NCBI RefSeq assembly: GCF_001590965.1
Contig: NZ_BCTW01000001.1
Location: forward strand, 62,001-126,000
Reading direction: 5' to 3'
Origin: Novosphingobium lentum NBRC 107847
Lineage (GTDB): Bacteria; Pseudomonadota; Alphaproteobacteria; Sphingomonadales; Sphingomonadaceae
Length of the DNA: 64,000 bases
Notes under the pieces: model-generated
The model's database searches: none
What the model saw: only the letters and a program-made list of their open reading frames with translations
What the model was told of the DNA's origin: nothing
Part shown: positions 52,100 through 56,182 of the stretch, in pieces
How positions within the stretch are numbered: the first letter of the stretch is position 1
Layout of the letters: every line of letters begins with the position of its first letter
Position numbers and translations under genes: made by a program

Positions 52100-53377
52100 C
52101 TACGCACGGATTTGGCCGTTCCCGCGCACCAGCCACTTGTAGGTGGTCAGCCCTTCCAGCGCGACCGGACCGCGCGCGTGGAGCCGCCCGGTGGCGATGC
52201 CGATTTCCGCGCCCAGCCCGAATTCGCCGCCATCGGCAAACTGGCTGGAGGCGTTGTGCATCACGATCGCGCTGTCGACTTCGGCCAGGAACCGCTCGGC
52301 CACCGCAGCATCCTCGGTGACGATCGCATCGGTGTGGCCCGAGGAATGGCGTGCGATGTGGGCCAGCGCATCGTCGATCCCATCGACCACCGCGACCGAC
52401 AGGATCGCGTCGAGATATTCGCAATCCCAGTCGTTGGCGGCAGCAGGCGCGATACGCGGGTCGATCGCGCAGGCCCGGGCATCGCCGCGCAGCACGCAGC
52501 CTGCGGCGAGCAGCGGCTCGACCAGCCCGTGCGGATCGGGATAAGTCGCGTCGATCAGCAGCGTTTCCATCGACCCGCACACGCCGGTGCGACGCATCTT
52601 GGCGTTGAGCACGATGGCGGCGGCTTTCGCGGGATCGGCGGCGTGATCGACATACGTGTGGTTGATGCCGTCGAGGTGCGCCAGCACCGGCACGCGCGCA
52701 TCGGCCTGCACCCGCGCGACCAGGCTTTTGCCCCCGCGCGGCACGATCATGTCGATCAGCCCGGCGGCGGCAAGCATCGCGCCCACGGCAGCGCGATCCT
52801 GCGTCGGCATCAATTGCACTGCTTCGGCCGGCACCCCGCCCGCGACCAGCCCTTCGACCAGTGCTGCATGGATCGCGCGGTTGGAATGCACCGCCTCGCT
52901 GCCGCCGCGCAGCAGCGCCGCGTTGCCCGATCGCACGCACAGCGCGGCGGCATCGGCGGTCACGTTGGGGCGGCTTTCGAAGATGATCCCGATTACCCCG
53001 ATCGGCACGCGCACGCGCGACAGCGCCAGCCCGTTGGGGCGCTCGCTGCGATCGATGACCGTGCCCACCGGATCGGGTAGCGCCGCCACGTCGGCCACCG
53101 CATCGGCGATCGCGGCAAGCCGCGCGGGATCGAGCCGCAGCCGGTCGAGCATGGCGTCCGACAGGCCGTTGGCGGCGCCCGCCGTCATGTCACGCAGGTT
53201 GGCCTGGAGGATCGCCGGCTGGTGCGCGCGCAGCGCTTCGCCAGCCCGACGCAGGGCATCGGCCTTGGTCGCATCGGGCAGCCGGGCCAGCACGCGCTGC
53301 GCGGTGCGAGCGGCGCGGGCCAGCGCATGGACCTGCGCTTCGACGGGATCGGCGGACGGGATCGGCTGGCTGGACAT
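52100..53377 (-). CDS. proA: Gamma-glutamyl phosphate reductase
   Basis: A 425-residue NADPH-dependent reductase of proline synthesis, making glutamate semialdehyde. The catalytic Cys is in RRTGVCGSMETLL; VPIGVIGIIFESRPNVTADAAALC and LRGGSEAVHSN are family hallmarks. No proB is adjacent. It diverges from the M23 peptidase gene, with a 232-base control region that holds many GANTC sites. Confidence 0.95.
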   Translation of the reverse strand: MSSQPIPSADPVEAQVHALARAARTAQRVLARLPDATKADALRRAGEALRAHQPAILQANLRDMTAGAANGLSDAMLDRLRLDPARLAAIADAVADVAALPDPVGTVIDRSERPNGLALSRVRVPIGVIGIIFESRPNVTADAAALCVRSGNAALLRGGSEAVHSNRAIHAALVEGLVAGGVPAEAVQLMPTQDRAAVGAMLAAAGLIDMIVPRGGKSLVARVQADARVPVLAHLDGINHTYVDHAADPAKAAAIVLNAKMRRTGVCGSMETLLIDATYPDPHGLVEPLLAAGCVLRGDARACAIDPRIAPAAANDWDCEYLDAILSVAVVDGIDDALAHIARHSSGHTDAIVTEDAAVAERFLAEVDSAIVMHNASSQFADGGEFGLGAEIGIATGRLHARGPVALEGLTTYKWLVRGNGQIRA

Positions 53378-53443
53378 GCCGCGCCCCTACCACCGCGCGG
53401 TGGCGCTGTCAGCCGTGCCCCGAAGATGACATGCCCGATGATC

Positions 53444-53593
53444 GACTCCGGGCATCGGAGATCGGAGATTCGCGCCCTCGGAAATCGTTGATCCCCCATA
53501 CGTTCCCGCGCGTTGCGAAAATATGCACAGCCGGATCGACTCGTCGGGCGAGTCGCACGACTCGGCGTGAGTCTCATGCAATCGATTCGACTC
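53444..53593. promoter_or_regulatory. GANTC (CcrM-type) site cluster
   Basis: Eight GANTC sites start at 53444, 53467, 53538, 53550, 53559, 53569, 53584 and 53589; a ninth is at 53661. The last six fall within 56 bases, ahead of the M23 peptidase gene. CGACTCG (53537-53543) and CGAGTCG (53549-53555) also form a hairpin, and GTCGGGCGAGTCG (53543-53555) is repeated inverted at 53588-53600. Methylation-state control through the cell cycle is the natural reading. Confidence 0.6.
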
Positions 53594-53609
53594 GCCCGAC
53601 CCATTCAGT

Positions 53610-54818
53610 ATGCGGCACTTCGCAAATACCAAAAAACGGGGTCGTATTCCTTTGCAGATCGAATCGCAGGACGGGTGGCTTACCCGGCTGCGGAGCTGGT
53701 TTCCCGAGCGTGAGTTTTTCATGCGCTCGCAGGGACAGGTCCGTTTCATCAGGATATCGTCGCGCCTGCAGATGGGCGGAGCCGGGCTGATCGCCGGGGC
53801 CGTGCTGGCGTGGGCCGTCGCGATGGCGGTGATGATCTTTGCGCAGTTTTCCGCCAGCAGCAGCCGCGATTCGCTGCTTCAGCGCGAAGCGGCGGTGACC
53901 ACCGCCGAAACCCGTGTTGCGCAATATCGCAAGGGCGTGGGAGGCATCGCCACCGATCTGCAGAAGCGTCAGGATTTCATCGAGAAGATGGTCCAGAGCC
54001 ACTTGGGCGAGCTTCCCGCCGACCTGCCCAAGGGCACCGTTTCCGACAGTTCCACCGAAGCCGACAAGACCGTGCGCAAGATCAGCATGGTCCTGCCCGA
54101 AGCCGCTGGTCTGGCCCGGATCGAGGCGCGCCAGCTGGCGCTGGTCGAACGCCTGACCCGTTATGCCGACGCGCAGTCGGCCAGCGCCGAAACCGCGATC
54201 CGCCGCGTCGGCCTCAACCCGCAGCTGATGATGGCATCCTACAACGGCCGCGACGCGCAGGGCGGCCCGCTGATCCCGATGAGCACGGGCCCCGGCAATT
54301 CCACCGATCCGCGCTTTGCCCGGTTGGGCGCCAGCCTCGAGCGGATGAGCGCGCTGCGCCACGGTCTGGCGGCGATCCCCAACACGCTGCCCGCCAGCCT
54401 CGAATATATCTCCAGCGGGTTCGGCTATCGCAGCGATCCGTTCACCGGGCAGGGCGCGTTCCACGCCGGGCTCGATTTTCGCGGACCGATCGGCGCCCCG
54501 ATCTATGCCGCAGCGACCGGCACGATCAGCTTTGCCGGTGTGCGTTCGGGGTATGGCAACTGCGTGGAAATCAGCCACGGCAACGGGTTGCTGACCCGTT
54601 ATGCGCACATGTCGCGGATCGAGGCTACCGTCGGCCAGCCGATCAATGCCGGACAGGTCATCGGCCTGATCGGCAGCACCGGCCGGTCGACCGGCCCGCA
54701 CCTTCATTTCGAAGTCCGCATCAACGACCAGCCGGTCAACCCGCGCCCGTTCCTGGAGGCCAATGCCCATGTTTTCCAAAAAGCCAGCGCCGGCGCAGCG
54801 GCCGGGACCGACGGCTAG
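53610..54818 (+). CDS. M23 family metallopeptidase, membrane-anchored
   Basis: A 402-residue peptidoglycan endopeptidase: short cytoplasmic N-terminus, one membrane helix at about 57-78 (AGLIAGAVLAWAVAMAVMIF), a periplasmic helical region and a C-terminal LytM domain. The zinc motifs are intact (FHAGLDF as HxxxD and HLHFE as HxH), so it should be active, unlike the EnvC-like protein. ATG 53610 keeps the WFPEREFFMRSQGQVRF segment common to sphingomonad homologues; ATG 53721 is the alternative. A bactofilin gene overlaps its 3' end, a known functional pairing in cell shape. Confidence 0.92.
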   Translation: MRHFANTKKRGRIPLQIESQDGWLTRLRSWFPEREFFMRSQGQVRFIRISSRLQMGGAGLIAGAVLAWAVAMAVMIFAQFSASSSRDSLLQREAAVTTAETRVAQYRKGVGGIATDLQKRQDFIEKMVQSHLGELPADLPKGTVSDSSTEADKTVRKISMVLPEAAGLARIEARQLALVERLTRYADAQSASAETAIRRVGLNPQLMMASYNGRDAQGGPLIPMSTGPGNSTDPRFARLGASLERMSALRHGLAAIPNTLPASLEYISSGFGYRSDPFTGQGAFHAGLDFRGPIGAPIYAAATGTISFAGVRSGYGNCVEISHGNGLLTRYAHMSRIEATVGQPINAGQVIGLIGSTGRSTGPHLHFEVRINDQPVNPRPFLEANAHVFQKASAGAAAGTDG

Positions 54819-55191
54819 TCCGATGGCCGGGGGCAATCGCGGCGCCGCGACATTCTCGATCTTCGGTGCGGACATCTCGCTCAAGGGCGATGTCACCGCC
54901 ACCGCCGACCTGCACATCGACGGGCGCATCGAGGGCGACATCACTTGCGCCGCGCTGGTGCAGGGCGAAGGCAGCGAAATCCACGGCGCGATCCGGGCAC
55001 AAAGCGCGCGACTTTCGGGCACCGTCCACGGCTCGATCGACGCGGGCGAACTGGTGATCCTGCGCAGCGCGCGGATCCACGGCGATGTCAGCTACGACGC
55101 CTTGACCATCGAACAGGGCGCCGAAGTCGACGGCAAGTTCGCGCACCGCACCGCGTCATCGGCTGAGGCACCGCTGACGCTGGTCAGCTGA
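54769..55191 (+). CDS. Bactofilin family cytoskeletal protein
   Basis: A 140-residue bactofilin: a Pro-rich N-terminal tail, then repeated beta-helix turns (DISLKGDVTATADLHIDGRIEGDI, VQGEGSEIHGAIRAQSARLSGTVHGSI, ARIHGDVSYDALTIEQGAEVDG). It polymerises without nucleotides and recruits peptidoglycan enzymes. ATG 54769 has GGAGG 9 bases upstream; ATG 54763 would be only 3 bases from it. It overlaps the M23 gene by 50 bases, so the two are co-expressed. Confidence 0.93.
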   Translation: MFSKKPAPAQRPGPTASPMAGGNRGAATFSIFGADISLKGDVTATADLHIDGRIEGDITCAALVQGEGSEIHGAIRAQSARLSGTVHGSIDAGELVILRSARIHGDVSYDALTIEQGAEVDGKFAHRTASSAEAPLTLVS

Positions 55192-55308: not shown

Positions 55309-56016
55309 TCAGCTGTCCGACACGCCTTCGGCCTTGCGGGCTTCAAGCCAGGCGGCGGCTTCGGCTTCCTGCGCGGCTTGCGCGGCGGCCTTGACCGAGG
55401 CGGTGCGTTCGGCGCGCAGTTCCTCGATGAGGGCGTCGCGATCGTTGCCGAGCCGGGCGTCGGTGACTTCCTGATCTTCGGTGATCCCGGCCTTCTTGGC
55501 AGCCTTGGCGACCAGCGCATCGAGTTCGCGCTGCGAACACAGGCCCAGCGTAACCGGATCCTTGGGGTTGATGTTCGAGATGTTCCAGTGGCTGCGATCG
55601 CGGATCGCGGCGATGGTGTTGCGCGTGGTGCCGATCAGCTTGCCGATCTGCGCGTCCGAGATTTCGGCATGGTTGCGCAGGATCCAGGCGATGCCGTCGG
55701 GCTTGTCCTGGCGCTTGGACACCGGGGTGTAGCGCGGGCCCTTGGTGCGGCTGACCGACACCGGGATCTTCTGCATCTTTAGCCGGTAGGCGGGATTGTC
55801 CTGCCCGCGATCGATTTCGGCCTGGGTCAGTTCGCCGGTGTGCACCGGATCGCGCCCGGTGAACTTGGAGCCGGCCAGATCATCGGCCATGGCCTGCACT
55901 TCCAGGATATGGATGCCGCAGAAATCCGCGATCTGATCGAAGTTCAGCGCGGTATTGTCGACGAGCCACGATGCCGTCGCATGCGGCATCAGCGGGAACG
56001 TGGGCTGGTTGCTCAC
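55309..56016 (-). CDS. trcR: Cell-cycle transcriptional regulator TrcR (DUF1013)
   Basis: A 235-residue alphaproteobacterial regulator. The N-terminal PLMPHATASWLVDNTALNFDQIADFCG, the central KGPRYTPVSKRQDKPDGIAWILRNH and the HTH-like ISDAQIGKLIGTTRNTIAAIRDRSHWN are the family's most conserved stretches. The C-terminus (ALIEELRAERTASVKAAAQAAQEAEAAAWLEARK) is a charged helix. The start is GTG 56016 with GGAG 7 bases before it. Confidence 0.9.
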   Translation of the reverse strand: MSNQPTFPLMPHATASWLVDNTALNFDQIADFCGIHILEVQAMADDLAGSKFTGRDPVHTGELTQAEIDRGQDNPAYRLKMQKIPVSVSRTKGPRYTPVSKRQDKPDGIAWILRNHAEISDAQIGKLIGTTRNTIAAIRDRSHWNISNINPKDPVTLGLCSQRELDALVAKAAKKAGITEDQEVTDARLGNDRDALIEELRAERTASVKAAAQAAQEAEAAAWLEARKAEGVSDS

Positions 56017-56182
56017 GGGAAATCTCCAGACAGCGGATATAGAAAGGGCCGCCCCTTGCGGAGCGGCCGTCAGCGCCACGATTTAGGCCAAGCCGCACGG
56101 AACGGCAAGGCCATTCGAAACATGCCTGCGATTAGGCGCGTTTGCTCAGGCAGGTGCGATGCGGCGCAGCATCGCGCGGCCA

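Follow-up and report, generated by a model that had tools for sequence, protein, structure and literature searches.

The GANTC cluster upstream of the M23 peptidase gene in the Novosphingobium lentum window (the whole 64-kb stretch of DNA that was analysed) is the divergent proA / M23-bactofilin promoter region, and it is built around a tandem of two CRNYTCRYCS boxes lying 21 bp apart. As far as comparison with relatives goes, this tandem element, not GANTC, is the most deeply conserved feature of the promoter, and as such it does not constitute a CcrM site. Our preferred reading, to which we give a probability of roughly 55%, is that the region would act as a sigma70-type promoter timed by replication, driving an lmdC-bacA-like operon and responding to CcrM/GcrA as well as to a factor binding the tandem boxes. 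The CcrM reading of the original prediction is plausibly right; the oldest conserved element, which was missed there, is a separate tandem site.

Profile matches and alignments define the genes around the promoter:
52100–53377, minus strand: proA, glutamate-5-semialdehyde dehydrogenase, the divergent neighbour (TIGR00407, 434 bits; cut-off 317)
53638–53644, plus strand: GGGGTCG, a conserved ribosome-site-like motif 5′ of the start codon (inspection of relatives)
53652–54818, plus strand: M23 peptidase, LmdC-like, likely starting at TTG 53652 (PF01551, 122.7 bits; protein alignment)
54763–55191, plus strand: bactofilin (PF04519, 84.9 bits)
55309–56079, minus strand: trcR (DUF1013), convergent, given as context only (PF06242, 205.5 bits)

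In each of the loci L001–L030 (30 in total) a divergent proA gene adjoins the M23 gene. The longest M23 frame opens at ATG 53610, which falls in the −10 region; the start was placed near TTG 53652 because of the comparison with orthologues. A hydrophobic stretch in the M23 protein was seen by eye; an LmdC is expected to have a single transmembrane helix and, at its N terminus, a cytoplasmic portion to which bactofilin binds. The M23 and bactofilin genes overlap by 56 bp and therefore probably form one operon. The same kind of overlap is known from the lmdC-bacA operon of Hyphomonas neptunium and Rhodospirillum rubrum, where an M23 gene is followed by an overlapping bactofilin gene (PMC10945521); the promoter described here has CcrM sites and the tandem, whereas the sections of that paper at hand describe no promoter control. 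The PF01551 and PF04519 matches agree with the targets named in the original prediction, a cell wall peptidase and a cytoskeletal bactofilin. That trcR is encoded beyond these genes is true as a matter of location, but trcR is convergent and no tie to the promoter was found. The nearest named relative was Novosphingobium jiangmenense (73% identity), in a search outside which records very near the window possibly lie.

The nine GANTC sites start at 53444, 53467, 53538, 53550, 53559, 53569, 53584, 53589 and 53661. Eight of them fall within 150 bases (53444–53593), the last six of these eight within 56 bases (53538–53593), and the ninth is in the gene, each at the place originally reported; a further GANTC is found at 53868, deeper inside the M23 gene. 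Four of the sites are listed here and the others with the elements that hold or flank them:
53444–53448, unstranded: GANTC (GACTC) on the proA side (motif count)
53467–53471, unstranded: GANTC (GATTC) on the proA side (motif count)
53569–53573, unstranded: GANTC (GAGTC) 3′ of box 2, off the relatives' common registers
53661–53665, unstranded: GANTC (GAATC) just within the M23 gene (motif count)

GANTC is strongly avoided across the window, with 76 sites against 276 (sd 15.7) expected from dinucleotide shuffles of the 64 kb. At the density of 1.24 per kb, as counted over 828,363 genomic bases, the Poisson chance of at least eight GANTC in one given 150-bp stretch is ~3e-11, uncorrected for how many windows there are. 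Two thousand dinucleotide shuffles of the intergenic region 53378–53651 yielded at most seven GANTC, while eight are observed. The cluster also ranks first in the genome sample, which covers 828,363 of 4,407,848 bases (~19%) and in which the ccrM and gcrA loci were chosen, not sampled: by 60-bp windows it has six GANTC (the next has four), and by 150-bp windows eight (the next, with five, is the ccrM promoter). The observation of a dense cluster, as originally reported, is confirmed.

Two other GANTC groups were seen in the stretches sampled. The second densest 150-bp cluster (L115:266–430, in G000:C3) has its five GANTC just 5′ of ccrM and fits self-control of this gene. Four GANTC occur between a ppsR-family gene and hemE (L125:4950–5260, in G000:C1, ~231 kb), a place ~115 kb from the M23 gene of the window, with a ParA-like gene and rsmG ~11 kb beyond it. 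We take the ppsR-family/hemE region to resemble an origin region, as in Caulobacter.

Both CcrM and GcrA are encoded by the genome. The best PDB match of CcrM is CcrMI (6pbd, E 2.4e-158), and PF01555 and the RAMA domain (PF18755) score over their cut-offs, with 615 bits against the NCBIfam CcrM model being below its cut-off of 830. Similarly, the 229-residue GcrA is over the cut-off for PF07750 (140 bits) and below that of the NCBIfam GcrA model (136 bits; cut-off 280). A GcrA match was found in 58 of 61 genomes (absent in G012, G017 and G018) and a RAMA match in 38 of 41 (absent in G018, G019 and G037), several of the genomes with no match being incomplete. The correlation between promoter GANTC and the presence of GcrA or RAMA is not clean, since five core sites are kept in L014, which comes from G019, a genome 92% complete that gave no RAMA match; in L026 from G012 (98% complete, no GcrA match) the −35 site is the sole GANTC. 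Methylation of GANTC has been described in a Sphingomonas strain (PMC8067484).

The tandem consists of two boxes, each of which holds a GANTC in N. lentum:
53537–53546, plus strand: box 1, CGACTCGTCG, consensus CRNYTCRYCS, holding GACTC 53538–53542 (conserved letters C 107/107, T 105/107, C 98/107, C 107/107)
53558–53566, plus strand: box 2, CGACTCGGC, 21 bp after box 1, holding GACTC 53559–53563 (conserved letters C 107/107, T 102/107, C 100/107, C 103/107)

Of 112 regions 5′ of the orthologous M23 gene, most of them from Sphingomonadaceae, 107 contain two such boxes at this spacing; the count was made with a 40-bp matrix that was retrained on the rows scored, and the lowest-scoring rows (such as L254 and L019) are possibly false. 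The best shuffle, in a test that keeps base composition only, reached 9.6 bits; the five remaining regions (L249–L253) were below 12 bits. The set of 112 was made of 35 regions from the same genus (L001–L030 and L179–L183), eight named records or MAGs (L035–L042) and 69 regions of a family sample, and as L037 and L209 are identical in sequence, the 107 rows represent 106 distinct ones. In a held-out test, for which the matrix was built on the first 37 sequences alone, 690 dinucleotide shuffles served as the control: among the 69 family regions, 65 passed their 99th percentile and 55 outscored every one of them, some of the test rows being close kin of training rows. The family search for M23 genes gave 78 places (one our own, 69 read and eight unread), with no M23 match at E 1e-60 in 43 of 119 family genomes. 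Fifteen distant regions of the same order but from other families (L165–L178 and L184), kept out of the 112, had neither an adjoining proA nor a GANTC cluster.

Conservation in relatives, which the original prediction had named as a check, is thus found to be family-wide, with the tandem in 107 of 112 regions and GANTC at fixed registers. Parsimony on a quick M23 protein tree gives 0–8 changes for the core columns of the tandem and 40–54 for the variable columns; the A of the GANTC in box 1, with 41 changes, behaves like a neutral position. This family-wide conservation refutes, for the six-site core, the idea of a chance or lineage-specific repeat expansion in a single genome, which we hold to be very improbable overall. 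It could still apply to single extra sites, and in its favour the site at 53569 and a perfect 13-bp inverted repeat (53543–53555/53588–53600, with several GANTC inside) are private to the N. lentum genome among those compared.

The same repeat might be taken for an RNA hairpin or attenuator, since its arms are perfect and the predicted fold is stable (z −1.8). However, only 2 to 9 of the 13 pairs form in 37 aligned relatives, so the pairing is not conserved; the repeat lies upstream of the inferred transcription start; the opposite strand folds alike (z −1.75); and Rfam gave 0 matches with E up to 1. The structured-RNA reading, which we find scarcely credible, was dropped on the grounds of the Rfam result, the pairing and the like folding of both strands. 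A different GANTC repeat form, GACTCGTCACGAGTC or close to it, with sites 10 bp apart, was seen 3′ of box 2 in L235, L236, L237 and L245, which are upstream regions from family genomes.

Across 37 relatives the proximal regions contain 121 GANTC where 25.3 are expected (z 21.6), and it is the sole enriched word among 16 palindromic words of the form XYNY′X′, the next having z 1.7; L019 could not be aligned and does not enter the 37-row columns. Inside the 40-bp element only six registers are used by GANTC: 5 (33 of 107 rows), 17 (44), 26 (61), 15 (8), 34 (5) and 0 (1), a pattern that is partly forced, as the tandem cores leave just 14 of 36 registers open to GANTC. The site between the boxes is:
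53550–53554, unstranded: middle GANTC (GAGTC), register 17, in 44 of 107 rows against 12.3 expected

These counts bear on the chief rival to our reading, in which the tandem is the box of a transcription factor (e.g. an OmpR-type envelope or replication regulator) and is alone conserved, most GANTC being by-products of a CGNYTC-type consensus and A/C/T drift with no role in methylation. Such a view is in line with the box core being far more conserved than the GANTC letters, with four of the 107 promoters having the tandem and zero GANTC in the ~100 bp compared, and with the counts inside the boxes, which are near those expected from independent base frequencies: 33 vs 32.8 in box 1 (register 5) and 61 vs 53.0 in box 2 (register 26). 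Because the base preferences there predict the counts, GANTC inside the boxes need no special selection and, given also the free A of box 1, may be partly incidental. The middle GANTC is a different matter. Its excess over expectation, and the fact that its N base is C (25), G (18) or T (1) in the 44 rows, whereas the corresponding base in the boxes is C or T only (107 of 107 in box 1, 104 of 107 in box 2), make it the strongest argument found that GANTC itself is under selection. The register-15 GANTC (8 vs 0.9 expected) also seems to exceed what base preferences explain. Together with the enrichment of GANTC alone among the palindromic words and the nearly invariant GATTCG at −35, the middle sites speak against the tandem-factor-alone reading in its pure form, and we consider it possible but rather doubtful.

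The core promoter lies downstream of box 2:
53583–53589, plus strand: CGATTCG at −35, fitting YGAKTCK, 25 bp after box 2; GATTC 53584–53588 is followed by GACTC 53589–53593
53609–53614, plus strand: putative −10 (TATGCG), aligned with GCTAGC of relatives (T 35/37, A 35/37)

GATTCG is near invariant in the 37-row alignment (G36 A35 T32 T37 C34 G37), and the gap from TTCGMC to the TA-containing −10 is 17 bp. In N. lentum itself the TA of the −10 sits one base upstream of the aligned column. Sphingomonad −10 elements are often without T at −7 (PMC8407463), which fits both GCTAGC and TATGCG. An automatic pattern (GANTC followed by a −10) recognised 82 of the 107 promoters; N. lentum is among the 25 missed, because its −10 differs. 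In the 82 recognised −35 sites the N base is T (71) or G (2), while C (48) or T (5) stands before the GANTC and G (73) or T (3) after it. Box 2 and the −35 GANTC are separated by 24–26 bp in 58 of these promoters, by 29–31 bp in nine and by 35–37 bp in 13; the outer classes are one helical turn apart, which suggests that a box-bound protein may contact the polymerase.

The −35 GATTCG with its preceding pyrimidine fits the extended motif proposed for GcrA, YGAKTCK, as described for Caulobacter (PMC7987155); in the same source the GcrA targets of B. subvibrioides show no preference for an extended motif. The GANTC sites 53584 and 53589 lie at most 50 bp upstream of the transcription start if this is at ~53621, as deduced from the −10 alignment. 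Of 96 Caulobacter cell-cycle promoters in which GANTC is no more than 50 bp from the start, most contain a single site and 11 contain more than one (PMC4287350). The CcrM/GcrA promoters of Caulobacter (mipZ, ctrA P1, podJ P2, ftsZ and nrdA) are alike in having YGAKTCK-type GANTC near −35/−10, ccrM and gcrA in the genome and targets of a cell-cycle type; unlike them, the present promoter has up to six core sites and a family-wide tandem box, which the text at hand on those promoters does not describe. The CcrM reading of the original prediction therefore stands in part: ccrM and gcrA are encoded, GANTC is generally avoided, its registers are fixed in the family and GATTCG fits YGAKTCK, but the deepest conservation is in the tandem, and GANTC inside the boxes is about as frequent as base frequencies predict.

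In the mechanism that we favour, activity of the M23 endopeptidase–bactofilin operon would be coupled to chromosome replication by three cis elements acting jointly: the tandem boxes, the −35 GATTCG and the CcrM sites in and between the boxes. The boxes, two helical turns apart and centred at about −80 and −59, would bind a putative activator whose subunits probably line up head to tail in a dimer or oligomer. GATTCG by the −35 would serve as a CcrM site of the extended type at which, once it is methylated, GcrA could recruit sigma70-RNA polymerase, and, owing to the CcrM sites between and inside the boxes, occupancy of the tandem would respond to methylation or compete with it. Passage of the replication fork would leave all sites hemimethylated together until CcrM returns late in the cycle, and this joint hemimethylation would result in a pulse of wall-hydrolase and bactofilin synthesis. 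What the comparison shows is the conservation, the registers, a spacing like that of a promoter and the presence of ccrM and gcrA, whereas methylation of the sites, the action of GcrA, the tandem-box factor and the timing are what we infer here; the fixed positions of GANTC around the tandem suggest that wall and cytoskeleton proteins may be made in time with replication.

Switches in which a bound protein blocks methylation are known in E. coli (OxyR/agn43 and Lrp/pap). Arguably, the factor on the boxes could likewise cover GANTC and keep the sites un- or hemimethylated, which would give a heritable or growth-state-dependent on/off choice; if true, this would be the most interesting outcome. 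GANTC does overlap or adjoin the factor boxes at two loci, and hypomethylation is seen in a synthetic Caulobacter promoter whose GANTCs overlap CtrA boxes (PMC5172544); against this, GANTC inside the boxes is not kept above the base expectation, and we judge such a switch unlikely. The MucR- or CtrA-occluded hypomethylated GANTC sites of Caulobacter in that paper share with ours CcrM sites overlapping factor boxes.

Several known regulators were considered as the tandem factor. CtrA was rejected, since TTAA-N7-TTAA is unlike the boxes, and so was LexA (GTTC-N7-GTTC, as quoted in PMC7987155). The boxes match no published MucR motif, and PMC7987155 states that none is known. CenR and ChvI have direct-repeat logic and envelope targets in common with the tandem (PMC9275681 and PMC9731502); CenR was rejected because TGA-N8-TGA has an 11-bp pitch (PMC9275681), as opposed to TTC/TGA cores 21 bp apart, and ChvI because TTGC-N3-GCAA or N-GCC-N8-GCC (PMC9731502) is unlike the box letters and the 21-bp pitch. 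For NtrX, BvrR and others the literature seen, partly as extracts, gave no usable consensus, and a search of similar scope for a motif like the CRNYTCRYCS tandem returned no match. No paper combining GANTC and bactofilin came up in the literature collection searched.

Many bacteria owe their shape to bactofilin-M23 modules, but little is known about the timing of their synthesis, and the biology of GANTC has been worked out mostly in Caulobacter and rhizobia. The promoter described here, which dozens of sphingomonad genera have retained and whose methylation sites keep register with putative activator boxes, offers a defined case in which a coupling of cell-wall morphogenesis to DNA replication can be tested, and the CRNYTCRYCS tandem motif can be used as bait for a new cell-cycle factor.

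To see where else the element occurs, the genomes were searched with models of it. Model R1 gave 43 matches up to E 10 in our own genome; the sole clear one is the site in the window (27.0 bits), and the second, at 18.2 bits, is in the nrdA region. In 13 genomes model R2 gave a match with E ≤0.05 in 12 and matched the M23 promoter in 11, the exceptions being G014 (nrdA-side match only) and G069 (no match); its eight other matches comprise four on the nrdA side and four that are not shared. The 21-bp tandem with GANTC recurs upstream of nrdA, the gene for the alpha chain of ribonucleotide reductase (PF02867, PF00317), in five genomes of the genus. A family sample gave 58 nrdA places, and among the 30 loci scanned seven have the tandem (our own genome included) and 23 do not; with four extra loci picked by the model itself (L265, L266, L270 and L296) this makes 11 of 34, the others with the tandem being L303, L304, L320, L322, L329, L330 and L331. 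The best score at nrdA loci or strands with no site was 8.3 bits.

The nrdA-side element sits 221–459 bp in front of nrdA; it is on the other strand and points away from the gene, and its GANTC often directly precedes each box. A GlsB-like gene is found near five of the 11 nrdA-side tandems and near three loci with no tandem. The promoter of Caulobacter nrdA contains a conserved GANTC, and expression of the gene falls when ccrM is deleted (PMC3973325). Because of the distance and orientation of the element, and its absence from 23 of the 30 loci, control of nrdA by the tandem is a suggestion only. A more far-reaching idea, which we put forward very tentatively, is that a cell-cycle regulator of Sphingomonadaceae might bind 21-bp-spaced boxes with CcrM sites built in at fixed registers and co-control the M23-bactofilin operon and, in some lineages, deoxynucleotide supply through nrdA; binding and methylation would exclude or require one another, and the regulator could thus read the replication state directly, alongside or instead of GcrA.

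A third shared place was found through the searches of G028, G009 and G027 and their cross-comparison: a weak tandem match that three genomes of the genus have where an M28 peptidase gene begins (near position 1501 in L164, L272 and L287). This match runs into the beginning of the reading frame and was not counted.
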